Of a stretch of DNA of 64,000 nt, positions 3,001-42,078 are shown one piece after another (position 1 is the first letter of the stretch; every line of letters starts with the position of its first letter). The stretch is from Duganella sp. CF458 (GTDB taxonomy: Bacteria > Pseudomonadota > Gammaproteobacteria > Burkholderiales > Burkholderiaceae_D): positions 1-64,000 of the forward strand of contig NZ_FOOF01000022.1 of the NCBI RefSeq assembly GCF_900113115.1, given 5' to 3'. The translations under genes were made by a program, and so were the position numbers. The notes under the pieces were generated by a model. The model was not told the DNA's origin. It saw only the letters and a list, made by a program, of their open reading frames with translations, and searched no databases.

Positions 3001-6000
3001 CCGGCCTGGTAACCGGCTTCACCTACGACGTCGAAGGGCACGTCGTGAAGCAGGTGCAGTACGCAACCGTACTGGCTAACAATGCCGCACCGCAATTGGT
3101 GGCGGCCAGCCCGATCGACCAGGTACAACTGTTCGCCTACGACAGCGAAGGCCGCCAGGTGCTGCACGTCGACCAGGACGGCTATGTGACCCGCCAGGCA
3201 TACGACGCCGACAGCAACGTCACCGAAACCTTACGCTATACCAACCGTACCGCTCGTCCGACTGCAGAAAGCACCGCGCCGCAGGCCGGCACGCTGCCGG
3301 TGGCAGTGGATGCGCAGCGCGATGACTGGAGCCGCAGCGTCTACGACGCGGCTGGCCGCCAGGTCTTCAGCTTGAACAGCAAGGGCGAGCTGTCCCAATG
3401 GACGTACGACGGCAATGTCGTCAGGCAGACGATCTTTGCCAAGACCATCGATCCGGCAACGCCGGCCACGATGGCTGCACTGTCGGCAGCGGCAGCAGCG
3501 ATTAGCGACCATGCCAAGGATGGCCAACTGAGCCAGGTCTTCGACGCTAATGGGCGTGTGATCGCCAATACCAATGCGTACGGCGGCACCACCAGGTATC
3601 GCTACGGTTCCGACGGCCGACTGATCGAAACGGTTGTGCCGGATGGCGAACCGTCGCTCCAAGGCTATGACCTGAATGGCCAGGTAGTATTCAGCAGGGA
3701 TTCGAGCAATCGCGAGAAGATGTTCTTCTACGATGCGTCGCACAACCTGGTGCGCACGCAGTCGACCGGCCGCCTGCCGGATCCGGACTGGAGGCTGGAT
3801 GCGCGCGATTCGACAGACATCGTGAAGGGCATGGTCTACGATGCCGCTGGCCGCGTGATCTGGACCAGCGTCGGCTTGCCGTCGCCATACGAAGCGAGTG
3901 CCGTTCGTTACGATGCTCACGGCAACGTGATCGAGAGCGTGCGGTATGCGGATACCAAGGGCCTGTACGAAGCGTCCCCACTGCCGGTCAATGGCCTGCC
4001 GTACAACGAAATGCGCCCGATTGTCGACCTGTCACGCGCTGCCGCAAGCCGCCTGGCTGCCGGCGGCAAGGCCAGCTTCGACCTGCGCACGCGCAATGTT
4101 TACAACGACAAGAACCAGTTGGTGTACAGCGAGCAGGGCGGCATCGTCACAGCCTTCAGCTACGACGATCAAGGCAACGTGATCAGGAAAGTGCAGTCGG
4201 CCTCGAAGATCGTGCCGGGTTCCGAACCATCCAGCGTACCGGTGAGTGCGGAAGACCGCATTACCCTGATGGCCTACGACGCCGACCATCACCTGATCTT
4301 GCAGGTCAACCCGGACGGCGCCGTCACCAGCCAGAGCTTTGATGCCTACGGCAACAAGCTGAAACACGCCGAGTACATGGCGACGGTGGGTGACGTTGCA
4401 GCACTGGCCGCAGCGTGGGCCGATCCGGCCGTTCGTGCCAAGCTGCCGGTTGCGACGTCTGCCGGTGATCGCATCAGCCACTATGCCTACGACAGCCAGG
4501 ACCGCCTGGTGTATAGCGTTGACATGACGGGCGCGGTCAAGCGCACCGAGTACGACGCGCACGGCAACGTGAGCGCGGAGATCCTGTTCGAGGAACATGT
4601 TACGGTACGTGGCGGCGCAGGCTTTGCCGACTACAGCCTGGGCGGCCTCGAAGCACTGTTCAAAGTCGCAGCGCCGCGCGACCATACGTCGAGCTACACC
4701 TATGACGCCCTGGGCCAGATGCGCAGCGCCACCGACAGCATGGGCGCCACCGATTTCACCACCTATGGCGCCAACGGCCGCAGGAACACTTTCACAGACA
4801 AGGAAGGCAATGTCTGGGAATACAAGTATGACGGTGAAGGCCGCCTGTGGATGGAGATTGGTCCGGCGCTGCCGGCACAGGGCGGTGGCACCTACCGTTC
4901 GGTGACCGAGTACGTCTACGACGGCAACGGCAATATGGTCGAGCGCAAGATTTCCGGCTCCAATGGGAACCTTGACAGCAGCTCCGTCCGTTATGTGTAC
5001 GATTACGCTGGCCGCGCCAGCGGCACGGAAACCCCGGAATCCCTGTACTGGAACGGAACTGCCTGGGCTTCGACGGCTGTGCAAAAAGGGCCGCGCTACA
5101 ACGCGCTCGGCCAGGTCCATAGCACGTCGACCGAAATGGGCGGCGGCATTCGCAGGTTCTATGACGAGTCGGGCCTGCTGAAGTACGAGCTTGACTACTA
5201 TGGTGGCGTCACCGCATACAAGCGCAATGTCTTTGGTGACGAGCTGGAGATGACGCGCTACGCGGCTGCCGTTCCGAAAGAAATGCTGGCGAACTTCACC
5301 AGCATGGACACGCCGGCGCTCGACCAGATCGTGGCAGGCCTGGATCGGACCGGCGCTCGCACCATCAGCAATACTGTCGACCGCGCGGGCCGCGTGATCG
5401 AATCGCAGGCGCCGGAAGCGTTTGTGTATGACCCGACGGCACCGGCTGGCCAACAGTACTACAAGGCCGGCATCAAGACTGTCCGCGATTACGACACCTT
5501 CGGTAACCTGCTCTCCACTGCGACCATCAACCCAGTCACAGGTGAAAAGACCGTGGAGGCAAGCTGGTACGACATCGACGGAAAGCTCAAGGCAACCGTC
5601 AGCAACGCCGGCTTCATGACCGTCTACAAGTACGACGACTTTGGCAACAAGGTGTCCGTCACCGAGTCGGCTACCGCAATCGCGGGCTGGAAGGGTGACT
5701 ACGAGCCGATGCCGGCTGCGCAGGAAGCTGCACACGACCGCATCACGACCTATGAGTACGACGAAGCACAGCGCATCACCAAAGAGACCCTGAACGACCG
5801 CGCCCACCTGGCAACCGCCAACAGCGGATATGTGAAGACCAGTCAATACGACAAGAAGGGCAACGTCGTCATTGCGAACTCCTGGGGGCCGGGCCAGACC
5901 GGCTCGAACTCGCCAACCATCATGACCTACGATGGCATGGGGCATGTCATCGCCGTATTGGACGGCATGCGTCCGAATGGCGAAGGCTTCGCGCTGACAG

Positions 6001-9000
6001 TCAACTTTTACGGCCCTGGTGGCCACGTGGTTGAAACCGTGCAGTACGAGAAGGGCGTGCTGGTGGAAGGCAAGACCGTAGCGGTTGACCCGAACTCGCC
6101 GGCCACCCGCCGCACCCGCATCGACAACGATTACGCGGGTCGCCCGGTGCGCATCTTCGATGCTGCGGGCATTACGCACGAGGTGTTGTACGATGCTGGC
6201 GGCAACAAGGCACGCGAACAAGCCACTGGCGCCATCAACAACGGCAATGCGCCTTCGAACTGGGCATACGACCTGCTGGGCCGACTGACGTCCGACTCCG
6301 ACCAGGGTGTCACCCTGAAGTACAACGCGTTCGGCGACTTGATCTACAAGAAGCAGGGCGAGCAGGAATACAGCTACGACTACGACGATGCCGGCCACCT
6401 GTGGCGCAGCAACGAAGCAGGCGTCACCCAGGTGTTCCTGAATGACTTGCGCGGTCAGCGCACGGCGATGATGGTCAGTGCAGGCAGTTTCAACGGCAAC
6501 CGCGACCTGTCGCTGGCCGCCTCCGCCGAGGAGCTGGCACAGGCGGGCGACGTACGGCGCACCGATTTCTACTATGACAGTGAAGGCCGTTGCATCCGCG
6601 AGGTGCAGCCAGTCCGCCAGGGCCAGCGCCCTGAGTCGATCAAGGTCTTTGATCATTGGGGTAACCTGTTGCAGGACACGCAGCCGGTGGTTGCGGGAAA
6701 ACCAGCGCCGACGGTCACCTATACCTACGACTTGAAGAGCCGCAAGCTGAGCGAAAGCCACACCAAGGCCGACGGCACTGCCGGCGGCCGAGTCCGCGAG
6801 TTCAGCTATGTGTTCGGCGAGCGTGGCATGGTTGTCATGCGCCAGACCACCGACCGTGAGAATGCGGCCGTCGCGGGTCCGCAAGACAACGATAGCCTGC
6901 ATGCGCGCTATCGCGAGACCGTTGAAAACTACAACATCGCGGGACAACTGCTGTCGACCATCGTCAACGGTGTCAAGGCTGAAGAACACACCTATGACGT
7001 GTTCGGCCAACTGCGTAGCGACATCATCGGCGGCCGGGTGGTCTGCAACTACGACTACAACGGCATCGGCCAGCTGGTCAAGGAATCCCACCCAGTGGTG
7101 GACAACTGGCGCTTCGACCTGGCTTCGCACAGCACGCTCAACGATGGCCAGCGCGCCATGAGCAAGACCTTCGCTTACGATAACCGCGGCAACCTGGCGA
7201 GCATCACCACCGGGACTGGCGTGGTCACCAAGTACACCCACGACGAGCAAGGCAACCTGACTTCGTCGACGGATGCACTGAACAACACCAGCTACACGAC
7301 CTGGGACAAGAGCGGGCACAAGAAAACGACGAAGGATGCACTCAATTACACCGTCATCAACGAGTACGACAAGCTGGGCCATCTCAAGAAGGTGATCGGT
7401 GCCGACGGCTCCATCACCATCAATGAGTATGACAATGCCGGCCTGCTGGTGCGCAGCACCCAGGCAAGCAAAGGCCAGACTGTCGATTACACCTATGACG
7501 ATGCCGGCCAGGTTGCCACTATCCACGAACTGGTGACCGGCATGAGCGCAGCGGCGAACACCAACCGCTGGACCTACTATGCCTACGACGCAGTGGGTAA
7601 CCGCATCTCTGAAGTCCAGGAGCAGAACGGCCTGACCTTCCAGCGCAATGTGTTGGTCTACGATGCCGAGCATCGCCTGGTTGGCGTAGATGTAGCCGAT
7701 CTCGGTACCGGGTCGCAGTTCGTCCGCATGGAGTTCGACGGCTTCGGCAACCGCAGCCGCTTCAACTCCTGGTCCAGTAGTTCCGGACCGGGACGCAACC
7801 AGGATGGCTACTTCTTCTACGATGCGTTGAATCGTATAGTGCGCGCCGACGCGACGAATGCTTCCGGCGCGGTCGACGAGTCGACGACTGACTATGTCTA
7901 TGACGTTGACGGCAACCTCGGCAGGAAGACGCAAGGCGGCGGCGCTACGCAGACATTCACCTACGATGCGATGAACCGTCTCGTTGCCAGCGTCATCGGT
8001 GGACAGCAGTACAACACCCGCTACGATTCCGCGGGCCGCGTGGTGGAAGAGTGGACCAAGGTCGAAGAGATGCCTGACGTGCAGGCTGACGTCGCACCAG
8101 TCGCGCCAATCGAACCGAAGCGCCCGGTCGACCCGGGTCCGAATGCACCGCAAGCGGACAAGGACCGATACCAGGCGCTGCTCACGCAGTACAACATCGA
8201 CTACACCGCCTACCAGAAAGCGCTGGCCGACTATGCGGAACAGCAGGCCGAATATGGCGACCAGGTGTCGTTCTTGTCGCGCTTGGTGAGAAGCAAGGCA
8301 AAGACTGGCTACGAGCGACACGCCATGTCGTATGACGTTGCGGGACGCACGCTGGTAACGGAAGGCTATAACGATGACGGCAGCGTCAAGTTCCGCCAGA
8401 CCAACGACAAGTTCGATGCCGCCGGCAATGTCTTGAAGAGCACTTCCTTCTCGACCGTTGGCGATGACATGAGCCAGTTCTATACCAGCACTTACGGCGC
8501 GGGTTCGACTGGCGCTGTCTTGCAGTGGTCGGAAGGCTATATGCGCGGCGAAAGCGGCAAGCTCGCCGGACGAACTGGTGCCACGGCCAAGAGCGTCATG
8601 GTGTACAACGCCGACGGCAAGATGATTGCTGTGAACTTCGAAGAACCGGCCAGCGGCGATTCGCCGAAGTCCGGACCGAAGTCGAAGTTCTTCGTGTTTG
8701 ACGCCCAGGGCAACATCCTGAAGGCGACTGAAGTCGACAAGAACGCGCCGATTCAGGAGCAATACCAGGTCATCGCCAACGGTCAATTGCAGATGCGTTA
8801 CAGCACCAACTCCGGTGGCTTCGGCGGTGACATGTCCGGTGAGCAGAAGGACAATTTCTGGCGTGCTTACAACCTCAACGCCAGCCAGAATCCGTTGATC
8901 GACGATCCTGTAGCTGGCGGCAGCACGCCTGGCAATGGCGGCAACGTGGTTGTGGCAAACGACGGCGATACCCTGCAGACGATCGCCCAGCGCATCTACG

Positions 9001-29729: not shown

Positions 29730-31745
29730 TTGACAGATCCACAACAGCCGACCGCCGCTCCCGGCGCGCCGAACGATCCGGTTTTTCCTCCGGGGGCGCA
29801 CGACGCCGATATTGAGCGCCTGTTTGGACCCGGCGGCCCCTTGGGCCCGGCGGTGGGCGGCTTTCGTCCGCGCCAATCGCAGACCGAGATGGCCAAGGCG
29901 ATTGCCGATGCCATCGCCAAGCAGCAGACCCTGATCGCCGAAGCGGGTACCGGCACCGGCAAGACCTTCGCCTACCTGGTGCCGGCCCTGCTGTGGGGCG
30001 GCAAGACCATCGTCTCCACCGGGACCAAGAACCTGCAGGACCAGTTGTTCCTGCGCGATATCCCGACCATCCGCGCCGCGCTGCAGGCGCCGGTGTCGGT
30101 GGCGCTGCTGAAAGGGCGCTCCAACTACCTGTGCCACTACCACCTGGAACGCACGCTGCAGAACGGCCGCATGACTTCGCGCGAAGATGTCGGCTACCTG
30201 CGCGAGATTTCGCGCTTCCTGAAGATGACCAGCACCGGCGACAAGGCCGAACTGGCGCGCGTGCCGGAAAATGCCCTGGTGTGGAACCTGGTGACGTCGA
30301 CCCGCGAGAATTGCATGGGGCAGGAGTGCCAGTACTACCAGGATTGCTTCGTGATGAAGGCGCGGCGCGAGGCGCAGCAGGCCGACGTGGTGGTGGTCAA
30401 CCATCACCTGTTCTTTGCCGACGTGGCGCTGAAAGATACCGGCGTGGCCGAACTGCTGCCCTCCGCCAACACCGTCATCTTCGACGAGGCGCACCAGCTG
30501 CCCGATACCGCCACGTTGTTCTTTGGCGACAGCGTCTCCACCTCGCAGATCCTGGAGCTGTGCCGCGACGTGCTGGCCGAGGGCCTGGCCCATGCGCGCG
30601 ACGGCGCCGAATGGGCCAAAGTCGTCACGCCGGTGGAAAAGGCGGCGCGCGACCTGCGCCTGACCTTCACGCAGGACATCGTGCGCATGTCGCTGCCGCA
30701 GATCGCGCCATCCAGCGATTTCTTCCCCGCGCTGCAGACGCTGAAGGATGAACTGATCGACATGGTGGAGGTGCTGGATAAGAACGCCGAGCGCGCCGAA
30801 ACCATCGAACAATGCCGCGTGCGCGGCAACGAGCTGTCGGCCCGCCTGGAAGCGTGGAAATTCGACCCGAAAGCGAAAGTGGCTGCCGGCGAAGAGGCCG
30901 TGTTCTGGGTCGAAGCCTTCCAAAGCTCGCTGCAGCTGCATAAAACGCCGCTGTCGATCGCACCGATCTTCAATGGCCAGCGTGAAGGCGTGCCGCGCAG
31001 CTGGATCTTCACCTCTGCCACGCTGGCGGTGAAAAACGACTTCACCCACTTCGCCCAGCAACTGGGCCTGGAGAATGAAGTGGCGCGCAATTGGCCAAGC
31101 CCGTTCAATTACGAACAGCAGGGCATCCTGTACGTGCCGCAGGGCTTGCCGGACCCGAATTCGATGGGCTACACCGATGCCGTGCTGGATGCGGCGCTGC
31201 CGGTCATCGAAGCGGCCGGCGGCCGCACCTTCCTGCTGTGCACCACGCTGCGCGCTGTCAAGCGCGCGGCCGACCGCCTGCGCGACGAATTCGACAAGCG
31301 CGGCCTGAAGTTCCCGCTGTTCGTGCAGGGCGACCGTGGCCGTACCGAGCTGCTGGACCAGTTCCGCAAGGCCGGCAACGGGGTGCTGATCGGCTCCCAG
31401 AGCTTCTGGGAGGGCGTCGACGTGCGCGGCGAAGCGCTGTCGCTGGTGATCATCGACAAGCTGCCTTTCGCGCCTCCTGACGATCCTGTGCTGGCGGCCC
31501 GCATCGAAGTGATGGAGCGCCAGGGCCTGAACGGTTTCATGGGCCACACCCTGCCGGAAGCGATCATCAACCTGAAGCAGGGCGCCGGCCGCCTGATCCG
31601 CGACGAGGGCGACCGCGGCGTGCTGATGCTGTGCGATCCGCGCGTGATCTCCAAGCCTTACGGCCGCCGCATCTGGCAAAGCCTGCCGCCATTCAAGCGT
31701 ACGCGCGAGGCGGCCGACGTCCTGGAATTCTTCAAAGGTCATTGA
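29730..31745 (+). CDS. DinG/YoaA-family ATP-dependent DNA helicase
   Basis: The protein has 671 residues with a probable TTG start. It has the Q-like motif FRPRQSQTEM, Walker A EAGTGTGKT (71-79), an iron-sulfur domain with four cysteines (C135, C195, C200, C206), and the DEAH box (252-255). The C-terminal half has the DinG/XPD motifs (IGSQSFWEGVDVRGEALS, QGAGRLIRDEGDRG). It unwinds damaged or R-loop DNA 5' to 3'. Its length and lack of an exonuclease domain fit YoaA more than DinG. Confidence 0.93.
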   Translation: MTDPQQPTAAPGAPNDPVFPPGAHDADIERLFGPGGPLGPAVGGFRPRQSQTEMAKAIADAIAKQQTLIAEAGTGTGKTFAYLVPALLWGGKTIVSTGTKNLQDQLFLRDIPTIRAALQAPVSVALLKGRSNYLCHYHLERTLQNGRMTSREDVGYLREISRFLKMTSTGDKAELARVPENALVWNLVTSTRENCMGQECQYYQDCFVMKARREAQQADVVVVNHHLFFADVALKDTGVAELLPSANTVIFDEAHQLPDTATLFFGDSVSTSQILELCRDVLAEGLAHARDGAEWAKVVTPVEKAARDLRLTFTQDIVRMSLPQIAPSSDFFPALQTLKDELIDMVEVLDKNAERAETIEQCRVRGNELSARLEAWKFDPKAKVAAGEEAVFWVEAFQSSLQLHKTPLSIAPIFNGQREGVPRSWIFTSATLAVKNDFTHFAQQLGLENEVARNWPSPFNYEQQGILYVPQGLPDPNSMGYTDAVLDAALPVIEAAGGRTFLLCTTLRAVKRAADRLRDEFDKRGLKFPLFVQGDRGRTELLDQFRKAGNGVLIGSQSFWEGVDVRGEALSLVIIDKLPFAPPDDPVLAARIEVMERQGLNGFMGHTLPEAIINLKQGAGRLIRDEGDRGVLMLCDPRVISKPYGRRIWQSLPPFKRTREAADVLEFFKGH

Positions 31746-31760
31746 GCCCAGGGATACGCA

Positions 31761-32801
31761 ATGAAACTGACGCGAGCGATGTTGGATGAGGCTGCAGGCC
31801 AGGGCCTGCTGGATGCAGGCCAGGCTGGGCGCTTGTGGCAGTTCCTGGTCGAGCGTGAGCAGCATACGCCCGGCTTCAAGCCGGCGCACATCCTGTATTA
31901 CCTGGGGGGCCTGATCGCCATCGGCGCCATGTCGCTGTTCATGACGCTGGGCTGGGAGTCGTTCGGCGGCACCGGCCTGCTGTTCATTTCGATGTGCTAT
32001 ATGGTGGCGGCGCTAGGCGCGGTCGAATGGCTGCGCGTGCGCGGCTTGGTGCTGCCGGCCGGGGTGCTGGCGGCCTTCGCCGTGGTGCTGGTGCCGCTTG
32101 CAGTCTATGGCTTGCAGCATATGCTGGGCCTATGGGCAGGCGGTGGCGCCGGCAGTTCGTACCGCAATTACCACTACTACATCGACTGGCGCTGGATCTT
32201 CATGGAGCTGGCCACGCTGGCTGCCGGCGCCGTAGTGCTGTGGCGCTACCGCATGCCGTTCACGGTGATGCCGCTGGCTGTGACCCTGTGGTACATGAGC
32301 ATGGATGTGACCGAAATGCTGCTTGGCCATTACAGCCTGTTCTCCCGCGAAGGCAAGATCATCTCGGCGGTATTCGGCGTCGCCATGACGCTGCTTGCGC
32401 TGTGGATCGACCTGCGCAACCGAAGTAGCAAGGACTATGCGTTCTGGTTGTATATCTGGGGCGTACTGACGTTTTGGGGCGCCTTGTCTTCGATGGACTC
32501 AGGCAGCGAGTTCGGAAAGCTGGTCTATTGCCTGATCAACGTCCTGATGATCGGCATCGGAGCAGCCTTGTCGCGCCGCGTTTTCGCCGTATTTGGCGGC
32601 TTTGGCTTGGCCGGCTACCTTGGCCACTTGTCGTACACCGTTTTCCGCGACAGTCTGCTGTTCCCGGTCGCCCTGACCGCAATCGGCATCGCCATCATCG
32701 CCGCCGGCGTGTTCTGGCAGCGTCGCGAAGCAGCGATCGGGGCCGGCTTGCGCCAATGGCTGCCCGGTCCCGTGCGCCTGCTGGTCGAACGCCGCGCGTG
32801 A
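31761..32801 (+). CDS. DUF2157-like multi-pass membrane protein
   Basis: The protein has 346 residues. A soluble N-terminal helix pair (LTRAMLDEAAGQGLLDAGQAGRLWQFL) is followed by about eight to nine hydrophobic segments between residues 45 and 325. The arrangement resembles DUF2157 membrane proteins. No catalytic motif is visible. It starts 15 bp after the helicase gene, likely in the same transcript, and converges on the alpha/beta hydrolase with a 9-bp gap. Confidence 0.8.
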   Translation: MKLTRAMLDEAAGQGLLDAGQAGRLWQFLVEREQHTPGFKPAHILYYLGGLIAIGAMSLFMTLGWESFGGTGLLFISMCYMVAALGAVEWLRVRGLVLPAGVLAAFAVVLVPLAVYGLQHMLGLWAGGGAGSSYRNYHYYIDWRWIFMELATLAAGAVVLWRYRMPFTVMPLAVTLWYMSMDVTEMLLGHYSLFSREGKIISAVFGVAMTLLALWIDLRNRSSKDYAFWLYIWGVLTFWGALSSMDSGSEFGKLVYCLINVLMIGIGAALSRRVFAVFGGFGLAGYLGHLSYTVFRDSLLFPVALTAIGIAIIAAGVFWQRREAAIGAGLRQWLPGPVRLLVERRA

Positions 32802-32810
32802 AGCTGCGGC

Positions 32811-33575
32811 CTAGCGCAGTTCCGGCGGCGCTTCGCCGGTAACAAGCCAGTTGCCGATTGCCCGATAGACTTGCGAGCGCTGGCCGTGCAGGCCGTGGGC
32901 GCTTTCACGGCTGCAGTCGCGCAGGGTGCCGGCGTAGACCTGCGGGAAAGCCAGGCTGTCAACTGCGATCAGGGGAAAGAAGCGCGCTTTCCGATAACTT
33001 TCGCGGAACGGCAGGCAGGCGTCGCGCCGGTGATGCACGCCAAGCACCGGCCGTTTCAGGTGCGGCACTTCGGCCCAGGCATCGCCGCTGCCGTTGACCA
33101 GCACCACCGCATCAACTGATGGCAAGCGGTTGGCGACATACGCAGCCGAGAAGGCGCCGTCGCTGCTGCCCATCAGGACGATGCGCGCCTGCGGATGGCG
33201 CTTGCGCATGAAATCGAGCACGGCGGCCACATCCTGCCGGTGCGCGGCGCCTTGGCGGCTGTCGATATCCAGCACTTCATGGTCGCTGGCGGTGTCCAGC
33301 GCCACCATGGCGCCGATTTGTTCTGCCATCTGGCGCTGCGCGCCGAACAAGGTATCCGGATCGGTCGGCAGGCTGCCCGGCCAGACGCCCTGCAAGCCGC
33401 GCTGGCCCGAGCCGCCGGCCAGGTAGAGCACAACGTGGCCGGCTGTGTGCTCGCCAGTCATCTCCAGCACACGCACGGTGGCGCCGGGCCGCGTCGGAAT
33501 ATCCAGCAGGACTTCCCCGGCCTGCGCCACGCCGTGCAGCGCGAGGGCCAGCCATGCCAGCGTGTGCATCCTCAT
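32811..33575 (-). CDS. Exported alpha/beta hydrolase
   Basis: The protein has 254 residues. The ATG at 33575 is 7 bp after AGGAG; a longer frame to 33605 has no such signal. The signal peptide is MRMHTLAWLALALHGVAQA. The fold markers are VVLYLAGGSGQRG (oxyanion loop) and GSSDG (136-140), with the predicted nucleophile S138. A late His in SAHGLHG may complete the triad. The substrate is unknown; periplasmic esterase or peptidase activity is possible. Confidence 0.85.
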   Translation of the reverse strand: MRMHTLAWLALALHGVAQAGEVLLDIPTRPGATVRVLEMTGEHTAGHVVLYLAGGSGQRGLQGVWPGSLPTDPDTLFGAQRQMAEQIGAMVALDTASDHEVLDIDSRQGAAHRQDVAAVLDFMRKRHPQARIVLMGSSDGAFSAAYVANRLPSVDAVVLVNGSGDAWAEVPHLKRPVLGVHHRRDACLPFRESYRKARFFPLIAVDSLAFPQVYAGTLRDCSRESAHGLHGQRSQVYRAIGNWLVTGEAPPELR

Positions 33576-33683
33576 TTGCCATCTCCTGTGCCGAGTGACT
33601 TTCACGCACCTCGATTCAATTGGCGCATTGTCTGAAATTGTATATTCTCAGGCAACGTTTTATGCAACAGTCGAGGTGACGCG

Positions 33684-34349
33684 ATGAAGTGCAAGTTGAT
33701 CTTGGGCGCGCTGGCGATGGCGCTGGCGCCCGCCGCGCACAGCCAATGCTGCGGCTTTGGCATGAGCTACGATAACGTTGTGGTCTGGCCGCAGCCGGAC
33801 CTGCGCATTCCAGTGCCGTCGGCGACCAATGCGAAGAAGGCGCCACCGGTCCTGCCCAAATCGAGGCCGGCCGTGCAGGCCAACGCGCATAAGCTTGCCC
33901 AGCACTTCCCGCTGGACAAGCGCATGGAGATGGAAAAGATCTACCTGCAAAGCATGGACGTCTACCTCCAGGTCGAGAAGAAAATGGGCTGGACGCCGCG
34001 CGACATGGCAGGCGGCCTGGCGGCATTCCTGGTCGGGAATTACATGGTCTTGAAAAACACCGAAGTCCCGGACGAGGCTTTCAATGCGGTGGCCAGGCAA
34101 ATCCGCGCACAGAACAAACTCCAGAACATCAACGACCGCAACGAAGCGGACAAGGTGCGCGACGTCTTCGAGCAGAGCGCCATGATCGGCGCCTTCATGG
34201 CCCTGGCCTACAAATCGCACCAGCAGCAAGCGCAGCCTGCGGCCGTCTATGAAAACATGCGCAACGCCGCACGCGAAAACCTGCAACTGGTGCTGAAGGG
34301 CGATCCGGCCAACCTTTTCATCGACAAAAACGGCATGAGGTTCCAATGA
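33684..34349 (+). CDS. DUF6683-like exported protein, copy 1
   Basis: This 221-residue protein has a signal peptide (MKCKLILGALAMALAPAAHS) and GAGG before the ATG. The region at residues about 65-200 is mostly helical. It contains NAHKLAQHFP, MDVYLQVEKKMGW, AAFLVGNYMV, VPDEAF, a KVRDVFEQSAMIGAFMALAYKS stretch and ARENLQLVLKGDP. The gene at 34726 has the same segments in the same order. Function is unknown; the family name is from memory. The stop overlaps the next start as ATGA. Confidence 0.82.
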   Translation: MKCKLILGALAMALAPAAHSQCCGFGMSYDNVVVWPQPDLRIPVPSATNAKKAPPVLPKSRPAVQANAHKLAQHFPLDKRMEMEKIYLQSMDVYLQVEKKMGWTPRDMAGGLAAFLVGNYMVLKNTEVPDEAFNAVARQIRAQNKLQNINDRNEADKVRDVFEQSAMIGAFMALAYKSHQQQAQPAAVYENMRNAARENLQLVLKGDPANLFIDKNGMRFQ

Positions 34350-34729
34350 CGATCTTTATCAAGAAGTTGTGCAATGCCTTCATCACGGATGCCGTCGTCA
34401 ATCGCCGCCTCGGCGGGGCTGCCGGGCGCAATGTGGAAGCCATCGGCGCCGTCATTGGCGGATTGTGGGTGGGCGGTATCGTCGCCGTGTCGGCGGACGC
34501 CCTGGACTGGGTGCCGAACATCATGAACAAGGCGGTGCACGACGATCTGCAGCCGGTGCATATTCCCTTGCGCGAGGTGCGGGCGGTGCGGCGCGAGTTC
34601 GGCATCCTGACCGGCATCGTAGTGGTCGAACTCGAGGAGGGCGGCGAGTTCCGCTTCCGCTGCTTCAATGCGCGCAGCGTGGCGGAGAACATGTCCGACC
34701 TGCTGCCTAGCCAGATGATGAGCGCATGA
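34346..34729 (+). CDS. Small protein with a PH/GRAM-like C-terminus
   Basis: This 127-residue protein overlaps both neighbours by ATGA, implying translational coupling. Residues about 25-50 are glycine-rich and hydrophobic (RNVEAIGAVIGGLWVGGIVAV), perhaps one membrane segment. Residues about 68-115 (IPLREVRAVRREFGILTGIVVVEL, then GEFRFRCFNARSVAE) have the alternating beta pattern of bacterial PH/GRAM-type domains. I do not recognise a family; the PH resemblance is inference. Confidence 0.75.
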   Translation: MTIFIKKLCNAFITDAVVNRRLGGAAGRNVEAIGAVIGGLWVGGIVAVSADALDWVPNIMNKAVHDDLQPVHIPLREVRAVRREFGILTGIVVVELEEGGEFRFRCFNARSVAENMSDLLPSQMMSA

Positions 34730-35415
34730 GGCGCCTGCGGCAGGCCGTGCTGTGCGCAGCGTTGCTTACGGCATCGGTGGCCCGAGCACAAGGTTATGTA
34801 GGCCTGGGACTTGATTATTCGATGACGACGGCGCCGATGATCAACTTCGCCAATATGGCGGTGATGAACAACAATGCGATGAATACCGGCGCCCGCTCGC
34901 GCAGCAAGCCTGCGCGCCTGGATGCACCGCCGGCGGTGCAGCGCAATGCGCAGGAACTGGCCAGGGTATTTCCAGCATCGAGCCAGGCTGCGATGACCCA
35001 GGCTTTTCAGCATAGCATGGATATCTACCAGCAGATCGCCGCCAAAATGGGCTGGCAGCGCGACGACCTGGATGGTGCGATGGCGGCCTTCATCGTCGGC
35101 AATTACATGGTATTCGCCAATCGCGATGTGCCGGACGAGGAGTTCGCGGCAGTGGCCGAGCAGTTGCGCGAGGGCGGCGGCACGCGCCGGCTGGCCGAGA
35201 AACAAAGCGCAGGAACGATCCGCAACCTGTACGAGAAAAGTGCGATGGTGGGCGCCTTCATGGCGCTGGCGTACAAGTCGCAGCAGCAAAAGGCACAGCC
35301 GGAGCAGGTGGCGGCCAACCTGCGCAACAGCGCACGCGAGAACCTGAAGCTGGTCTTGGGGACCGATCCCGAGCACCTGCAGATCGATGAGCGAGGTGTT
35401 ATGCTTGTCAAATGA
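34726..35415 (+). CDS. DUF6683-like exported protein, copy 2
   Basis: This 229-residue paralogue of the gene at 33684 has a signal peptide (MRRLRQAVLCAALLTASVARA). It shares the blocks NAQELARVFP, MDIYQQIAAKMGW, AAFIVGNYMV, VPDEEF, SAMVGAFMALAYKS and ARENLKLVLGTDP. The N-terminal 60 residues differ between the copies, which suggests different partners or processing. The stop overlaps the next gene as ATGA. Confidence 0.82.
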   Translation: MRRLRQAVLCAALLTASVARAQGYVGLGLDYSMTTAPMINFANMAVMNNNAMNTGARSRSKPARLDAPPAVQRNAQELARVFPASSQAAMTQAFQHSMDIYQQIAAKMGWQRDDLDGAMAAFIVGNYMVFANRDVPDEEFAAVAEQLREGGGTRRLAEKQSAGTIRNLYEKSAMVGAFMALAYKSQQQKAQPEQVAANLRNSARENLKLVLGTDPEHLQIDERGVMLVK

Positions 35416-35774
35416 CCACTCTTAACGGTTCCTGCCACTGCGGCGCCATCACGATCGAGGTGCCGGCTGCACCGGCCTATCTGATCGACTGCAACTGCTC
35501 GATCTGCCGCCGCACGCGGGCGCTGTGGGCCCTCTACCCTGAAGACGCTGTGCGCATCGAGGGCGATCCCGCAGGTACCGAGGATTATGTCTGGGGCGAT
35601 AAATCGCTGCGCACGGTGCGCTGCCGCTCTTGCGGCTGCGTCACGCACTGGAAGTCGCTGCAACCCAATGGCGACGGCCGCATGGGTGTCAATATGGCCA
35701 ACTTCGCGCCGCAAGCGGTGACCCCGCTGGAGCGGCGCAAGTTCGATGGCGCCGATACCTGGACCTATCTATGA
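35412..35774 (+). CDS. GFA-family zinc protein
   Basis: The 120-residue protein has the cysteine pattern of the GFA (glutathione-dependent formaldehyde-activating) fold: C8 and C10 (CHCG), C27, C29, C32 (CNCSICRR) and the later CRSCGC. These bind structural and catalytic zinc. GFA-like proteins of this size rarely have proven formaldehyde chemistry; only the fold is claimed. Start and stop both overlap neighbours by ATGA. Confidence 0.9.
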   Translation: MTTLNGSCHCGAITIEVPAAPAYLIDCNCSICRRTRALWALYPEDAVRIEGDPAGTEDYVWGDKSLRTVRCRSCGCVTHWKSLQPNGDGRMGVNMANFAPQAVTPLERRKFDGADTWTYL

Positions 35775-36241
35775 TCGCCGACCTGCCGCAAGACGCCTTG
35801 TTGCAGCGTTACCGTGAGCAGGGCGCATACACCGATTGCTTCGCCATCGACGTGCCGCGCCAGGTGGCGCATGCAGCCTTTGTCGAGGCGTTCTATACCA
35901 CCGCGGTATTCAAGCTCGAGCGCCTGTTGCTGGCGCTGTTCGTTGCGCGTCCTTCGCGCGACGCGGAGGCGCGCGAGCTGGCGCATGGCCAGCGCCAGCA
36001 GTTTGCGGCGTGGTCGGTGGAAGAGCGGGCACCCGGCCAATTGCTGATGTGCGATTTCGCCGGTAGTACGCGCTCCTGGCTGATGGTGTCGCCGGCAGGG
36101 CAGGGTACGCGCTTGTACTTTGGTTCGGCCGTGGTGCGCTCGCGCCAGGGCGGCGTGTTCCGCGCGTTGCTTGGCTTCCATCAGCTCTATTCGCGCATCC
36201 TGTTGCGCGCCGCGGTGTCCCGCGCACTCAAGGCTGGCTGA
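35771..36241 (+). CDS. Uncharacterised protein coupled to the GFA gene
   Basis: The protein has 156 residues from the ATG at 35771, which overlaps the GFA stop. An upstream extension to 35630 only shadows the GFA gene. It has no signal peptide. The pattern ELAHGQRQQFAAWSVEER, LLMCDFAGSTRSWLMVSP, TRLYFGSAVV is suggestive of a lipid-binding or DUF2867-like fold, but I cannot assign it. It is part of the coupled chain from 33684. Confidence 0.75.
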   Translation: MIADLPQDALLQRYREQGAYTDCFAIDVPRQVAHAAFVEAFYTTAVFKLERLLLALFVARPSRDAEARELAHGQRQQFAAWSVEERAPGQLLMCDFAGSTRSWLMVSPAGQGTRLYFGSAVVRSRQGGVFRALLGFHQLYSRILLRAAVSRALKAG

Positions 36242-36247
36242 GTCTCG

Positions 36248-37459
36248 ATGGATTCCCTGATCACCGCGTCGGCCCGTTCGCTTGCCAGCGGCGATGTGCT
36301 GGGAGCCCTGAAGCATGTGGCCCTGCGCGACGATCCGCCGGCACTGGCCCTGCGCGGCATTGCCATGGCGCGCTTGGGCGACTACCCCAAGGCGCGAGAC
36401 CTGCTGCGCCGCGCCGGCCGTGGCTTCGGCGCGCACGAAGAACTGGCGCGCGCCCGTTGTGTGGTGGCCGAAGCCGAAGTGGCGCTGGCCATGCGCGATT
36501 TCGCCGGCCCGCCGCGCGTGCTGGCAAGCGCGCTGGCGGTGCTGGAACGGCATGGCGATTACGGCAATGCGTTGCAGGCGCGCCTGATCGCGGCCCGGAG
36601 AGCTCTCCTGTTGGGCTGCCTCGAAGCTGCCGCGGCGGAATTGTCGCGACTCGATATACGTGCCCTGACACCGGCGTTGGCGGCGGTGGCGCAGTTGGCA
36701 GCAGCCGAATTGGCAATGCGTTCGTTGCGCCCTGCAGCGGCCCGGGCGGCACTCGCGCATGCAGGTGCGGCGGCCGCGCGTTCGGGCGTGCCGGAACTGA
36801 TGACCGAAGTGATGGACGCCAACGCCGCGTTGCAGCGCCCCGCCGCGCGACGGCATGGCGGCGGCGACATGTCGCTCGATGAGGTGGTGTTGCTGCTGGC
36901 TTCCGACACGCTGGTGCTGGATGCCTGTCGACGCGGCCTGGGCGGCGGCGCCACTTGGCGCCCGTTGGCGCGCAGGCCGGTATTGTTCGCGCTGGCCCGC
37001 AGCCTGGCCGAGGCCTGGCCCGGCGACGCCGAGCGTGACCTGCTGATCGAGCACGCCTTCAACACCCGTCGCCCCGACCAGACCCACCGCGCCCGGCTGC
37101 GGGTCGAGATCGGCCGCCTGCGCGCGTTGCTGAAAGGACTGGCCGGTGTCGAAGCCACGCCGCTCGGCTTTGCGATCCGGCCGCTGGCTGGCCGCGCGGT
37201 GGCCGTGCTGGAGCCGCCCATCGATGGCGCGCAGGCATCGCTGCTGGCGTTGTTGTCCGACGGCGCTGCCTGGTCGACTTCCGCGCTGGCGCTGGCGCTC
37301 GATGCCAGCCAGCGCACTGTCCAGCGCGCGCTGGCTGATCTCGAAGCGGCCGGGCAGGTGCGCTCGATCGGCAATGCCCGCACGCGGCGCTGGCTGGCGC
37401 CGCCGCTGGCCGGATTCACGACAATCTTGTTACTCCCTGCGTCACTGCCGTTGGAATAA
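36248..37459 (+). CDS. TPR-like / winged-helix transcriptional regulator
   Basis: This 403-residue protein begins with about 190 Ala-rich helical residues resembling degenerate TPRs (ALRGIAMARLGDYPKARDLLRRAG). A segment at about 240-310 (AWPGDAERDLLIEHAF, THRARLRVEIGRLRALLKGL) resembles the OmpR/SARP-type effector wing. The C-terminal part (about 330-380) is a second helix-turn-helix (STSALALALDASQRTVQRALADLEAAGQVRSIG). It probably controls the downstream propeller and DUF899 genes. It starts 6 bp after the previous stop without a visible Shine-Dalgarno. Confidence 0.82.
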   Translation: MDSLITASARSLASGDVLGALKHVALRDDPPALALRGIAMARLGDYPKARDLLRRAGRGFGAHEELARARCVVAEAEVALAMRDFAGPPRVLASALAVLERHGDYGNALQARLIAARRALLLGCLEAAAAELSRLDIRALTPALAAVAQLAAAELAMRSLRPAAARAALAHAGAAAARSGVPELMTEVMDANAALQRPAARRHGGGDMSLDEVVLLLASDTLVLDACRRGLGGGATWRPLARRPVLFALARSLAEAWPGDAERDLLIEHAFNTRRPDQTHRARLRVEIGRLRALLKGLAGVEATPLGFAIRPLAGRAVAVLEPPIDGAQASLLALLSDGAAWSTSALALALDASQRTVQRALADLEAAGQVRSIGNARTRRWLAPPLAGFTTILLLPASLPLE

Positions 37460-37507
37460 AGTTCACTTGCGGCGCAGATCAAGGCGCGCCTCATAAGGAG
37501 CAATGCA

Positions 37508-38161
37508 ATGACCCGAAATTCACACAAGGTGCGCAAGGCTGAAATCCTGCGCGAATACGGCCCGTTCGACGGCGTTAGCAAAGTCGGCGGCGTTACTTAC
37601 GACGGCCATCTGGTGTGGGCTGCCACCGGCGCCCGCCTGGTCGGCTTTGATCCGGAAAACGGCAAGCCGGCACGCACGCTGGAACTGGCTGCCGACGCCG
37701 GCACGGCGTTCGATGGCAAGTTCCTGTACCAAATCGCCGCGGAACGGATCAACAAGATCGACCCGGCCAGCGGCACAGTGGTGTCGTCGATCCCCGCGCC
37801 CGGCAAGGGCGGCGACTCGGGCCTGGCCTGGGCGGAAGGCAGCTTGTGGGTAGGGCAGTACCGCGATCGCAAGATCCACCAGATCAATCCCGAGACGGGC
37901 GCCGTATTGCGCACCATCGAGTCGAACCGCTTCGTCACCGGCGTGACCTGGGTGGATGGCGAGCTGTGGCATGGCACCTGGGAGGGCGACCAAAGCGATA
38001 TCCGCCACGTCGATCCGCACAGCGGCGCTGTGCTGGAACTGCTGGAAATGCCGCCCGGCGTGTTCGTCAGCGGTCTGGAATCCGATGGCGCAGGCTTGTT
38101 CTATGCCGGCGGCGAAAACAGCGGCAAGGTGCGCGCAGTGCGCCGCCCGCAAGGAGAATGA
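37508..38161 (+). CDS. Beta-propeller protein (glutamine-cyclotransferase-like)
   Basis: The protein has 217 residues, starting 7 bp after AAGGAG. It is built of four to five short propeller blades (VWAATGARLVGFDPENG, FLYQIAAERINKIDPASG, LWVGQYRDRKIHQINPETG, LWHGTWEGDQSDIRHVDPHSG). It has no signal peptide, unlike secreted glutaminyl cyclases. Catalytic activity is not assumed. Its stop lies 2 bp before the DUF899 gene's start, so the two are likely co-expressed. Confidence 0.85.
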   Translation: MTRNSHKVRKAEILREYGPFDGVSKVGGVTYDGHLVWAATGARLVGFDPENGKPARTLELAADAGTAFDGKFLYQIAAERINKIDPASGTVVSSIPAPGKGGDSGLAWAEGSLWVGQYRDRKIHQINPETGAVLRTIESNRFVTGVTWVDGELWHGTWEGDQSDIRHVDPHSGAVLELLEMPPGVFVSGLESDGAGLFYAGGENSGKVRAVRRPQGE

Positions 38162-38163
38162 AC

Positions 38164-38898
38164 ATGCATACGGTCGTCAATCAAGAGCAATGGGTGGCGC
38201 AGCGCAAGCAATTGCTGGTGCGCGAGAAGGAGTTGATGCGCCAGCAGGACCAGTTGGCCAGCGCCCGGCGCGCCTTGCCTTGGGTGCGCGTGGACAAGCA
38301 GTATGTGTTCGATACGCCGCAGGGCAAGCGGTCGCTGTCCGACCTGTTCGAAGGACGCAGCCAGCTCGTGGTGCAGCACTTCATGTTCGCTCCTGGCCAG
38401 GAGCGCGGCTGCGCGCACTGTTCCTACATGGCCGACCATACGGACGGCGCGCTGGCGCACCTGGCCCAGCGCGACGTAAGCCTGGTGGTGGTGTCGCGTG
38501 CACCGCTGGCCAGCCTGGAGCGCATGCGCAAGGAGATGGGCTGGCAGTTCAAATGGGTGTCGTCGGGGGAAAGCGATTTCAATTACGACTTTCACGTCAG
38601 CTTCGCGCCGGAAGACATGGCCGGCGGCGAGGTTTACTACAACTATGCCGGGCAAGGCTTTCCGCACGAAGACGCGCCCGGCGTCAGCGTGTTTTACAAG
38701 GATGATGCGGGGGTGGTCTACCACACCTATTCGACCTTCGGCCGCGGCGTGGAAGTGATGATGCACACCTATCGCTTCCTCGATCTCACGCCACTGGGAC
38801 GCCACGAAGAGGGCTTGCCCTACACCATGGCGTGGGTCAGGCATCACGACCGTTACGCGCAGCCGGCCGCGTCGTGCTGCGGATCCGCCCACGCCTGA
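38164..38898 (+). CDS. DUF899-family thioredoxin-like protein
   Basis: The protein has 244 residues from the ATG at 38164, 7 bp after AAGGAG; an in-frame ATG at 38158 is too close to that signal. It carries the DUF899 hallmarks: HFMFAPGQERGCAHCSYMADH, a GxSxxNYDF-like segment (SGESDFNYDFHVSF), VSVFYKDDAGVVYHTYSTFGRG and a late LTPLGRHEEGL. The CAHC pair sits where the thioredoxin-fold redox site would be. It ends with CCGSAHA, a possible metal-binding tail. Physiological role unknown. Confidence 0.92.
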   Translation: MHTVVNQEQWVAQRKQLLVREKELMRQQDQLASARRALPWVRVDKQYVFDTPQGKRSLSDLFEGRSQLVVQHFMFAPGQERGCAHCSYMADHTDGALAHLAQRDVSLVVVSRAPLASLERMRKEMGWQFKWVSSGESDFNYDFHVSFAPEDMAGGEVYYNYAGQGFPHEDAPGVSVFYKDDAGVVYHTYSTFGRGVEVMMHTYRFLDLTPLGRHEEGLPYTMAWVRHHDRYAQPAASCCGSAHA

Positions 38899-38910
38899 TG
38901 CGGGGACGCC

Positions 38911-39315
38911 ATGTCGAGCTTGCGGCCCTGGCGGGCCGTGGCGGCGATCGCCTGCGGCCACCTGGCGTCGATGGCGGTGGTGGCGGCGGCGCTGGCCTTC
39001 AGGCTGCCGCTGGACCGTGCCGCGCTGCAGTGGGGCGCAGGCGTGCTGCTGGTCGCTGCGCTGGCCTGCCGCTTCAGTAAGGGCCACGCGCTGGCCGGGC
39101 AGGCCGGCATGGCGCTGTGGACTTTCATCACGTCGACCACGCACGGCGCCGGCTTCGTGCTGATGCCGGCCTTGATTACGATCTGCGGCTCCGGCGCCAC
39201 GGGGCTGCTGTCGCAGGCCGTGGCCGCGCTGGGCCTGCACCTGGTGGCGATGCTTGCCGCGAACGGCGCGGTTATTTACCTTGCCGCCCGCTTGGTGCAG
39301 TGGTTCAAGGCTTGA
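38911..39315 (+). CDS. Small four-helix membrane protein
   Basis: This 134-residue protein is mostly hydrophobic, with about four membrane segments (starting near residues 8, 38, 66 and 105). A polar signature sits in the third: TFITSTTHGAGFVLMPALI. Short membrane proteins with an HGAGxxLxPALI motif occur near DUF899-type genes, but I cannot name the family. It starts 12 bp after the DUF899 gene and overlaps the 3' end of the convergent oxidoreductase gene by 11 bp. Confidence 0.75.
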   Translation: MSSLRPWRAVAAIACGHLASMAVVAAALAFRLPLDRAALQWGAGVLLVAALACRFSKGHALAGQAGMALWTFITSTTHGAGFVLMPALITICGSGATGLLSQAVAALGLHLVAMLAANGAVIYLAARLVQWFKA

Positions 39316-40279
39316 TGATCACCTTGCCGGTGACCTTGCGCGCGGCCATGGCTTGCAGCGCATGCGGCGTGTCGGACAGCGTATAACGGGCCGAGATATG
39401 AGGACGGATCTTGCCTTCGGCCAGCCAGCCTAGCAGCTGCATCATGCCGGCCAGGTTGGCTTTCGGCTCGCGCTTGACGAATTCGCCCCAGAACACGCCC
39501 ATCAACGAGGCGCCTTTGAGCAGCGTGAGGTTCAGGGGCAGCTTCGGGATTTCGCCGTTGGCGAAACCCACCACCAGGTAGCGCCCGCGCCAGCCGATCG
39601 AGCGGAAGGCCGGTTCGGCGTATTCGCCGCCGACCGGGTCATAGATCACGTCCGGCCCCTTGCCGTCGGTGGCGGCCTTGATTGCTTCGCGCAGGTCGGT
39701 GCTGGCATAGTTGACCAGGACGTCGGCGCCATGCTCCTTGCAGACGGCCAGCTTTTCTTCGCTGGAGGCGGCGGCAATCACGCGCGCGCCGAGCGCCTTG
39801 CCGATTTCGATCGCGGCCAGGCCGACGCCGCCGGCGGCGCCCAGCACCAGCATGGTCTCGCCGGCTTTCAACTGGGCGCGATCCGCCACCGCATGGTGCG
39901 AGGTTCCATAGGTCAGGCTAATCGCGGCGGCGGTATCGAAGTCCATCCCCGGCGGCATCGGCATCAGCGAAGCGGCCGGCACCAGCAGTTGTTCGGCAAA
40001 GCCGCCGTGCGCGGAGAAGGCAATCGCCTTGTCGCCCGGCTTGAAGCCCTGCACCCCTTCGCCCACCGACAGCACCACGCCCGAGACTTCATTGCCCGGC
40101 GTGAAGGGCAGGGAGGGCTTGTACTGGTACTTGCCCTGGATGATCAGCACATCGGGGAAGTTGACGGCGGCGGCCTTTACCTGCAGCACCACCTGGCCCG
40201 GGCCGGGCTGCGGGTCGGGTACTTCTTCCAGCACCAGCGTGTCGGGCAAGCCCCATTCCTTGCAAACGATAGCCTTCAT
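39305..40279 (-). CDS. NADPH:quinone oxidoreductase (MDR family)
   Basis: The protein has 324 residues, starting at the ATG at 40279 with GGGAG 5-6 bp upstream; the longer frame to 40993 reads into the TIR gene and was rejected. It has the GroES-like N-terminal half of zinc-free medium-chain dehydrogenases (KAAAVNFPDVLIIQGKYQ, TPGNEVSGVV) and a Rossmann motif (GAAGGVGLAAIEIGKALG). It reduces quinones or enones with NADPH in the cytoplasm. It is transcribed divergently from the TIR-domain gene. Confidence 0.94.
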   Translation of the reverse strand: MKAIVCKEWGLPDTLVLEEVPDPQPGPGQVVLQVKAAAVNFPDVLIIQGKYQYKPSLPFTPGNEVSGVVLSVGEGVQGFKPGDKAIAFSAHGGFAEQLLVPAASLMPMPPGMDFDTAAAISLTYGTSHHAVADRAQLKAGETMLVLGAAGGVGLAAIEIGKALGARVIAAASSEEKLAVCKEHGADVLVNYASTDLREAIKAATDGKGPDVIYDPVGGEYAEPAFRSIGWRGRYLVVGFANGEIPKLPLNLTLLKGASLMGVFWGEFVKREPKANLAGMMQLLGWLAEGKIRPHISARYTLSDTPHALQAMAARKVTGKVIIKP

Positions 40280-40399: not shown

Positions 40400-41005
40400 A
40401 TGAGTATCCGGTACGGCTGCTTTTTCAGTTACGCGCATGGCCAGCACGCATATATGAGCCACTTCAAGGACGACCTGGTCGATGCCCTGAAGTGCTATCT
40501 GGAGCCCCATTTCGACAACGAGACCGAACTTTTTGTCGATAGCGAGCAACTGGGTGGCGGCGACGATATCGACCACCGCCTGGCCCTGGCGATGTGCCAG
40601 AGCGCGACGATGATCGTGATCTACACGCCCAAGTACGAGGCCCACCCATACACCCGGCGCGAGTTCGCCGCCATGCAGATGATCGAGGCCGAGCGCAGCG
40701 GCTGGTACGAGCTTCCCAGCCACCTGATCATCCCTGTGATCATGACCCGCCATCCTCTGAACCTGCCGCGCCAGATCAGCGAGCCTGGCATGTATGTCGA
40801 TTTTTCGCGCTACACGCTGGCAACCGGGGACTTGAAGACCAACCCCGATTTCCTGCCCGACATCCGGCGCATCGTCGATCGCATCACGATGCACTACCAC
40901 TGCCTGAAGGCGAGCATCCCGCCCGAGCACGATTGCAGGCAGTTCGCGCTGCCGCCGGTGCCGCCGGAATGGCGCCCGCCGGCAGCACCGCACTTCCCAC
41001 GCTGA
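40400..41005 (+). CDS. TIR-domain protein
   Basis: The protein has 201 residues, starting at the ATG at 40400 after GGGGAG (spacing 9). The TIR domain begins at residue 5 (YGCFFSYAHGQ). It continues through the BB-loop-like LFVDSEQLGGGDDI to TMIVIYTPKYEAHPYTRREF. E88 in YTRRE occupies the position of the catalytic glutamate of TIR NADases. Residues about 145-201 form a helical, Pro-rich tail. The next gene, 20 bp downstream, is a KGGVGR-variant ATPase, so the two are probably one module. NADase activity is inferred from the conserved Glu only. Confidence 0.9.
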   Translation: MSIRYGCFFSYAHGQHAYMSHFKDDLVDALKCYLEPHFDNETELFVDSEQLGGGDDIDHRLALAMCQSATMIVIYTPKYEAHPYTRREFAAMQMIEAERSGWYELPSHLIIPVIMTRHPLNLPRQISEPGMYVDFSRYTLATGDLKTNPDFLPDIRRIVDRITMHYHCLKASIPPEHDCRQFALPPVPPEWRPPAAPHFPR

Positions 41006-41025
41006 GTATCCACCGAAAGAGCGCC

Positions 41026-42078
41026 ATGGAACACCTACGCCTGCACCTGCCGGAGCTGCCCTCAGCCGGCGAAGTCACCACCTTCTATTCCTATAAAGGC
41101 GGCGTAGGCCGCACCATGGCACTGGCCAACCTTGGGCACATACTGGCATGCCGCCGCACGGCGCCGGTGCTGCTGATCGACTGGGACCTGGAGGCCCCGG
41201 GCCTGCATTACTATTTTCCCGGCGCGGCGCAGGCCCCGGGCGTGCTGGACCTGTTCGAGGAATGCCGCGAGCAGCTGCTGGAACGCGCCGGCCGCTACGC
41301 CAGCGATCAGGCGCTGGCCGACGCGGTGCTCAGCGCGGTCCGCTGGGAACAGTACCTGGTCAGGGCATGCGATGACCGGCCACTCTGGCTGCTGCGCGCT
41401 GGGCGGTGCGATGGCAGCCATGCGGAACGCGCGGCAATGCTGGACTGGCAAGGCTTGTTCGACGCTTGCCCCGCGCTGTTCCGCTCCTTTGCCGCGCGCC
41501 TGGCGCGTTATTTCGGCGATGTGCTGGTCGATGCGCGCAGCGGGCGCGGCGATTGTGCCGCCATCTGCACCACGCTGCTGCCGACCCGGCTGGTGCTGGT
41601 GTTTGCGCCGAACCGGCAGAACTTCGACGGCTTGCAGGACCTGGTGGCGCGCGCCACCGCTTACCGCAGCTGCCATGAAGACGAACAGCGCCAGTTGCTG
41701 GTGTACCCGCTGCCGTCGCGCATCGATGCCGCGGATGCGGGACAATGCACGTTCTGGCGGCGCGGTGCCGACGGGGAGGGCGGCTACCAGGCGCTGTTCG
41801 AGGACATGTTGGGCCAGGCCTACGGCTTGCCCTGGCTGTCGCTGGAAGACTACTTCGATGCGGTGCAATTGCCGCACTGCGCCGGCCTGGCCAGTGGCGA
41901 GCCGCTGCCGGCACTGGCCCTGCAGCAAGGCTACTATGCATTTATGCAATGGTTTGGCGCTGGACTCTGTCCCTGGCAACGCTTGCCTGCGGCCGGGCCG
42001 GTGACGCTGAACCACCACCACAGCCTGCCCCTGGCGCAGGACCGCGCCGGATACTGGCCGCTACCCGCTGTCATGTAA
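41026..42078 (+). CDS. KGGVGR-variant MinD/ParA-like P-loop ATPase
   Basis: The protein has 350 residues. The deviant Walker A is YSYKGGVGRTMALAN (K24 to T30), where Arg replaces the usual second Lys of KGGxGK(T/S). DWDLEAPGLHYYF (52-64) is a conserved companion motif, and VLVDARSG corresponds to Walker B. No DNA-binding or effector domain is visible; the C-terminal third has no recognised motif. This KGGVGR type occurs in multi-gene signalling or conflict modules, often with TIR proteins. It probably controls the TIR protein upstream. It is followed 54 bp later by surE. Confidence 0.88.
   Translation: MEHLRLHLPELPSAGEVTTFYSYKGGVGRTMALANLGHILACRRTAPVLLIDWDLEAPGLHYYFPGAAQAPGVLDLFEECREQLLERAGRYASDQALADAVLSAVRWEQYLVRACDDRPLWLLRAGRCDGSHAERAAMLDWQGLFDACPALFRSFAARLARYFGDVLVDARSGRGDCAAICTTLLPTRLVLVFAPNRQNFDGLQDLVARATAYRSCHEDEQRQLLVYPLPSRIDAADAGQCTFWRRGADGEGGYQALFEDMLGQAYGLPWLSLEDYFDAVQLPHCAGLASGEPLPALALQQGYYAFMQWFGAGLCPWQRLPAAGPVTLNHHHSLPLAQDRAGYWPLPAVM

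Follow-up and report, generated by a model that had tools for sequence, protein, structure and literature searches.

A probable accessory operon of Duganella, patchily distributed, combining two DUF6683 proteins with a candidate GRAM-like protein

DUF6683 (PF20388) is a protein family for which no function is given, and the literature that was searched makes no mention of DUF6683, PF20388 or IPR046505, the last of which we take to be, possibly wrongly, the InterPro number of the family. Many of the members seen begin with a stretch that, judged by eye, resembles a signal peptide. The other described families to which the proteins discussed here can be compared are the GRAM domain (PF02893) and the bacterial PH domains termed PHb (PF08000). 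The latter are small PH-like domains, for which the authors expect protein rather than lipid binding (PMC2817789).

The present locus lies in a stretch of 64,000 nucleotides from Duganella sp. CF458 (contig NZ_FOOF01000022.1, positions 1 to 64,000), hereafter the window, in which two DUF6683 genes, designated A and B, flank a gene for a small protein, designated MID (Table 1). The three reading frames and the ATGA overlaps that join them lie exactly where a first-pass annotation, made from the letters of the window, had placed them. Like many of their DUF6683 relatives, both A and B start with a signal-peptide-like stretch. The locus differs from the other DUF6683 loci of the genus that were fetched in that it unites an A-type and a B-type gene in one operon, whereas those loci hold a single DUF6683 gene. 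A tandem DUF6683 pair is also found in a further genome (G365), but without MID.

Table 1. Features of the A-MID-B run and of the two genes that continue it, in positions of the window
Feature	Coordinates	Strand	Description
A	33684..34349	+	DUF6683 protein, 221 aa; signal-peptide-like N-terminus (residues 1-20), then QCCGFGMSYDNVVVWP, then helical C-terminal domain (residues ~60-221)
Likely Sec signal peptide of A	33684..33743	+	MKCKLILGALAMALAPAAHS; by eye; similar N-termini in A-type relatives
A/MID overlap	34346..34349	+	ATGA; retained in 6/6 MID-bearing genomes
MID	34346..34729	+	GRAM/PH-like protein, 127 aa; no signal peptide seen; probably cytoplasmic
GRAM-like core of MID	34457..34705	+	residues 38-120; from alignment with four distant relatives and sub-threshold Pfam GRAM matches in other members
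MID/B overlap	34726..34729	+	ATGA
B	34726..35415	+	second DUF6683 protein, 229 aa; B-type N-terminus
Likely Sec signal peptide of B	34726..34788	+	MRRLRQAVLCAALLTASVARA; by eye
GFA-family protein	35412..35774	+	PF04828; next in the overlap chain after B
156-aa protein	35771..36241	+	no Pfam match; end of the ATGA chain

Both A and B are members of DUF6683 by their Pfam scores (95 and 93.5 bits, respectively, with a cut-off of 23.6). They align with each other without gaps, with 82 of 168 residues identical (49%; E 1e-57), over a region that excludes the N-terminal ~50 residues of each, in which the two proteins differ. Their assignment to DUF6683 and their paralogy with unlike N-termini, both proposed in the first-pass annotation, are thus upheld. 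No further copies of either gene are present in this genome. A scan of A, MID and B against NCBIfam gave nothing over cut-off, searches of PHROGs and PADLOC with the three proteins returned nothing useful, no relatives of DUF6683 or of MID were found in viral contigs, and none of B among plasmids. In a tree of 34 rows, which has long branches and omits the sequences at L077, L084, L085 and L094-L097, the A-type proteins form a clade (17 rows; 99/96) apart from the B-type clade (8 rows; 98/99), within which five B rows, including that of the window, cluster at 100/99. The A rows that are accompanied by MID constitute a single clade of 6 (94/87) within the A clade of 17. Three further genomes (G150, G165 and G179) each possess one A-type and one B-type gene at separate loci. 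A recent tandem duplication of A to give B is rejected, as the A-type and B-type clades are separate and each contains rows from other loci. Judged from the sequences, A and B appear to be two older subfamilies that have been brought together, with no fresh duplication, and MID would most simply have been gained once, beside A.

Within the genus (74 genomes) DUF6683 is present in 20 genomes and MID in 6. Among the samples drawn from wider groups, DUF6683 occurs in 6 of 300 genomes of the order and 6 of 398 of the phylum (5 of the latter above cut-off), and a profile of MID detects it in 6 of 294 genomes of the family, 2 of 200 of the order and 2 of 369 of the class, with the genome of the window counted each time. 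The named relatives found are Duganella sp. Root336D2, Massilia eburnea, Pseudoduganella violaceinigra and P. guangdongensis. The site shared by these loci adjoins a gene for a DinG-like helicase (29730-31745 in the window). In all six MID-bearing genomes of the genus MID immediately follows an A-type gene, and both genes are intact, as is their ATGA overlap. B is intact in only three of these (the window, G067 and G166). The three genes are also present in G182, where B lacks 13 internal residues and is not in frame with the ATGA that precedes it. G185 has A-MID followed by a stub of B, comprising a signal-peptide-like start, a stop and a remnant of the last ~21 residues, and G196 (a genome 83% complete) has A-MID without B at the site and one other, distant DUF6683 gene elsewhere. 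In G159 B is kept without A or MID, and in G178 and G165 A stands alone at the helicase-adjoining site. Variation extends to the slot after B, which is occupied by a GFA gene in the window, G182, G185 and G159, and by a gene for a DUF998 membrane protein in G067; there is no GFA match after the B slot in G166 or G196. The open reading frame labeled n2 in our neighborhood comparison is a place marker only, and overlaps both a dehydrogenase gene on the opposite strand and a TIR gene. Co-conservation of the three genes had been set beforehand as a test of the first-pass annotation. Over the six related MID-bearing genomes on which the comparison rests, a small set, its A-MID part holds throughout and its B part does not, such that the claim of a conserved three-gene unit is not supported.

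In G159 (M. eburnea) the stretch before B (L009, 5911-5960), with its ribosome-binding site and start, resembles that before A in G166. A deletion may have fused B to the front end of A in this genome, so that B now uses the start and ribosome-binding site that had belonged to A, although the shared stretch is short.

The A/MID and MID/B junctions are each a 4-base ATGA overlap, and the same holds for the junctions between B and the GFA gene (35412) and between the latter and the next gene (35771). As the ATGA chain runs past B into two more genes, A, MID and B are not a bounded unit. The product of the last gene of the chain may be an SRPBCC protein. By gene calling, 4-base overlaps are found at 4 of 40 co-directional neighbor pairs in the window, three of them inside the present run and one outside; the caller overlooked the MID/B overlap because its start for B lay too far downstream, and others were possibly missed likewise. 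Gene neighbors throughout were taken from this simple codon-score caller, which misplaces some starts. Four ATGA overlaps in succession look like more than the background of the window, and the translational coupling of A, MID and B claimed at first pass is likely. Pairwise dN/dS is below 0.4 in all three genes (A 0.10-0.34, 7 sequences; MID 0.08-0.24, 6 sequences; B 0.16-0.38, 5 sequences), and such low values suggest that A, MID and B are real genes under constraint. The value for MID is lower than that for A in 14 of the 15 shared genome pairs, with G166-G196 as the exception. A promoter scan of 32700-39400 found none, where shuffled sequences gave 1.2, and is uninformative.

The MID protein of the window has no match in Pfam, NCBIfam or PADLOC and only an insignificant one in PHROGs (E 0.56). 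When profiles of MID were searched against the PDB, each search gave a single chance-level match (best E 1.3 and 8.6), and none of its relatives was found in phages. The affinities of MID are instead suggested by other members of its family, three of ten of which match the Pfam GRAM domain with 12.7, 14.6 and 16.9 bits, all below the cut-off of 23.6, over a span from profile position 28, 29 or 48 to position 102 of 112. The MID of the window and the six remaining members give no GRAM match. The relative in G1258 shows a weak match to DUF7246 instead, and GRAM is the only Pfam family to match more than one member. PHb domains are small and PH-like, as MID may be, but PF08000 matches none of the ten members in a scan that ran with HMMER filters on and admitted E values up to 10. 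Members of the MID family align over most of their length and share a core of the form GG.WVGG ... N ... T ... FRCF.A; deviations from it are small. The core resembles the pattern of the GRAM family. An AlphaFold model of MID, made from four close sequences, has a pLDDT of 33.9, which is too low for use.

One of the four distant relatives of MID is encoded on a plasmid of Mycobacterium branderi (29% identity) and is the sole MID relative among the plasmids searched; the others belong to G393, G1258 and G007. That of G007 is the C-terminal portion of a larger protein of 304 aa (L093, 5428-7046). The gene for this protein directly follows a nucleotide-cyclase-like gene, whose product matches Guanylate_cyc with 20.1 bits, under the cut-off of 21.9. 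The stretches surrounding the four distant relatives (3.5-10.5 kb) contain no DUF6683 match, which suggests that MID is a family of its own; for DUF6683, the a4 profile at E 0.01 missed 5 of 36 stretches known from Pfam (L085 and L094-L097). From this comparison MID emerges as a rare, probably GRAM-like family that lies below the Pfam thresholds, with members in Burkholderiales, outside that order in the same class, and in Mycobacterium. The protein is probably a small cytoplasmic GRAM/PH-type domain.

The first-pass annotation had described MID as a membrane or PH-like protein. The PH-like part of this description is borne out as a hint, and the membrane part has a real basis in the copy of the window but does not hold for the family. 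On a simple hydropathy scale averaged over 19 residues, a stretch of MID scores high in three of the six copies of the genus (window 1.98, G185 1.85 and G182 1.72). The same stretch reaches 1.18-1.32 in the copies of G067, G166 and G196, and the same place in the four distant relatives reaches 0.13-0.63, where polar and charged residues are found. A transmembrane segment as a feature of the family is therefore rejected, given that half of the genus copies and every distant relative are without the hydrophobic stretch. This stretch falls on the conserved GGLWVGG part of the core, a region that we read as soluble beta strands; in the subgroup comprising the window, G185 and G182, MID might nonetheless be membrane-associated.

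The N-termini of A and B, as read by eye, make it likely that both proteins are exported, in agreement with the periplasmic location assigned to them at first pass. Their signal-peptide-like stretches end AHS/Q in A and ARA/Q in B. The segment right after the predicted signal peptide of A contains a Cys-Cys pair (QCCG; 33744-33752), which is shared with many A-type rows and is missing from B and from the A-type rows of G150 and G177. The AlphaFold model of A has a mean pLDDT of 71.7, with residues 1-56 below 50 and, from residue 61, ten-residue block means of 62-96 that are mostly above 80. In the model the C-terminal domain is helical and closes with a hairpin. A fold search with this model gave no match at E <= 0.001 in the PDB or BFVD, and VIA-align yielded a best Z of 2.8 among 702 chains, in a search that is uninformative for a helical protein. 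No catalytic-looking set of conserved residues was seen in the A4 alignment, by impression only.

Taken together, these comparisons lead us to favor, with moderate confidence, the view that the locus is a lineage-restricted and patchy accessory operon with an A-MID core, in which A would be exported, MID would be a cytoplasmic GRAM-like protein and B would be dispensable. The three genes, the paralogy of A and B, the constraint on them and their patchy co-occurrence are observed, and from these we infer export, the GRAM fold of MID, and the following compartments and functions. A would be exported through Sec and might act as a small helical protein outside the cytoplasm, in a binding or envelope-accessory rather than an enzymatic role. 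MID would remain cytoplasmic as a GRAM/PH-like domain, probably with either a protein or the cytoplasmic side of the inner membrane as its docking site. B, which belongs to a different DUF6683 subfamily than its paralogue A, might be exported independently and would have come to adjoin A-MID as a dispensable addition. If A and B are indeed exported and MID is cytoplasmic, the three products have no compartment in common. The comparison narrows what merits testing to the A-MID pair.

The best-surviving of the alternatives, which we nevertheless regard as unlikely, is that A and MID work as a pair across the inner membrane, with MID on the inner leaflet or on the export machinery aiding the synthesis, targeting or export of A, and with B as an optional client. 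This would fit the observations that within the genus MID never occurs without A, that A-MID survives the loss of B and that dN/dS is lower for MID than for A in nearly all genome pairs. Against these stand the 11 of 17 A-clade rows that are without MID on the stretches examined, the occurrence of MID relatives elsewhere without DUF6683 and the lack of any direct sign of contact between the two proteins.

Next in order, and similarly unlikely, comes the proposal of the first-pass annotation that A, MID and B form an envelope hetero-complex, in which translational coupling keeps the ratio of the subunits fixed and MID is the membrane component. Short gene overlaps couple translation and are enriched among the subunits of heteromeric complexes in general (PMC10666635). 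The succession of four ATGA overlaps, rare elsewhere in the window, is consistent with such an arrangement, as are the constant adjacency of A and MID and the hydrophobic stretch in half of the genus MID copies. However, that stretch is missing from the other copies, near and distant, and the coupling extends to the GFA gene, whose slot is variable, and to a further gene, which argues that the overlaps mark compaction or co-expression. A coupled run that includes genes which come and go points to co-expression rather than to a fixed complex, and the ATGA chain alone does not mark a complex. An obligate complex of the three proteins in particular is unlikely, as B is missing or damaged in half of the MID-bearing genomes, B occurs alone in G159, A occurs alone in G178 and G165, and A-type and B-type genes are found at separate loci in other genomes. 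That MID is a passenger unrelated to the two paralogues between which it was captured, with a common promoter as the only thing shared, appears doubtful as well, since the A/MID junction is kept in every MID-bearing genome of the genus while B and GFA turn over, even though relatives of MID occur in unrelated contexts, the genus DUF6683 loci outside this site have one DUF6683 gene and no MID, and the occupant of the slot after B changes from species to species.

The preferred reading, that of an accessory operon with an A-MID core, can be carried further by supposing that MID founds an undescribed bacterial GRAM-like family and that in this lineage it has become dedicated, in the cytoplasm, to partnering an exported DUF6683 protein. 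The synthesis or export of an envelope protein would then be tied to a domain that reads the membrane. This is a speculative extension that we consider improbable.

A few observations concern other parts of the window and other loci. On the + strand at 40400-42078 the window encodes a TIR_2 protein (35.3 bits; cut-off 28), followed by an open reading frame for a ParA/CbiA-like ATPase that matches the PADLOC candidate PDC-M28B (64 bits). Reading frames similar by eye to these two lie side by side in G178 (L069, 1350-3744), and the TIR_2 protein and the ATPase could possibly be a defence pair. The distant DUF6683 genes at L081, L084 and L094 (G365, G467 and G780) are situated, by eye, near spoT- or gmk-like genes, which may be chance. 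The first 12 kb of the window are filled by one open reading frame of 3981 codons (6-11951, + strand).
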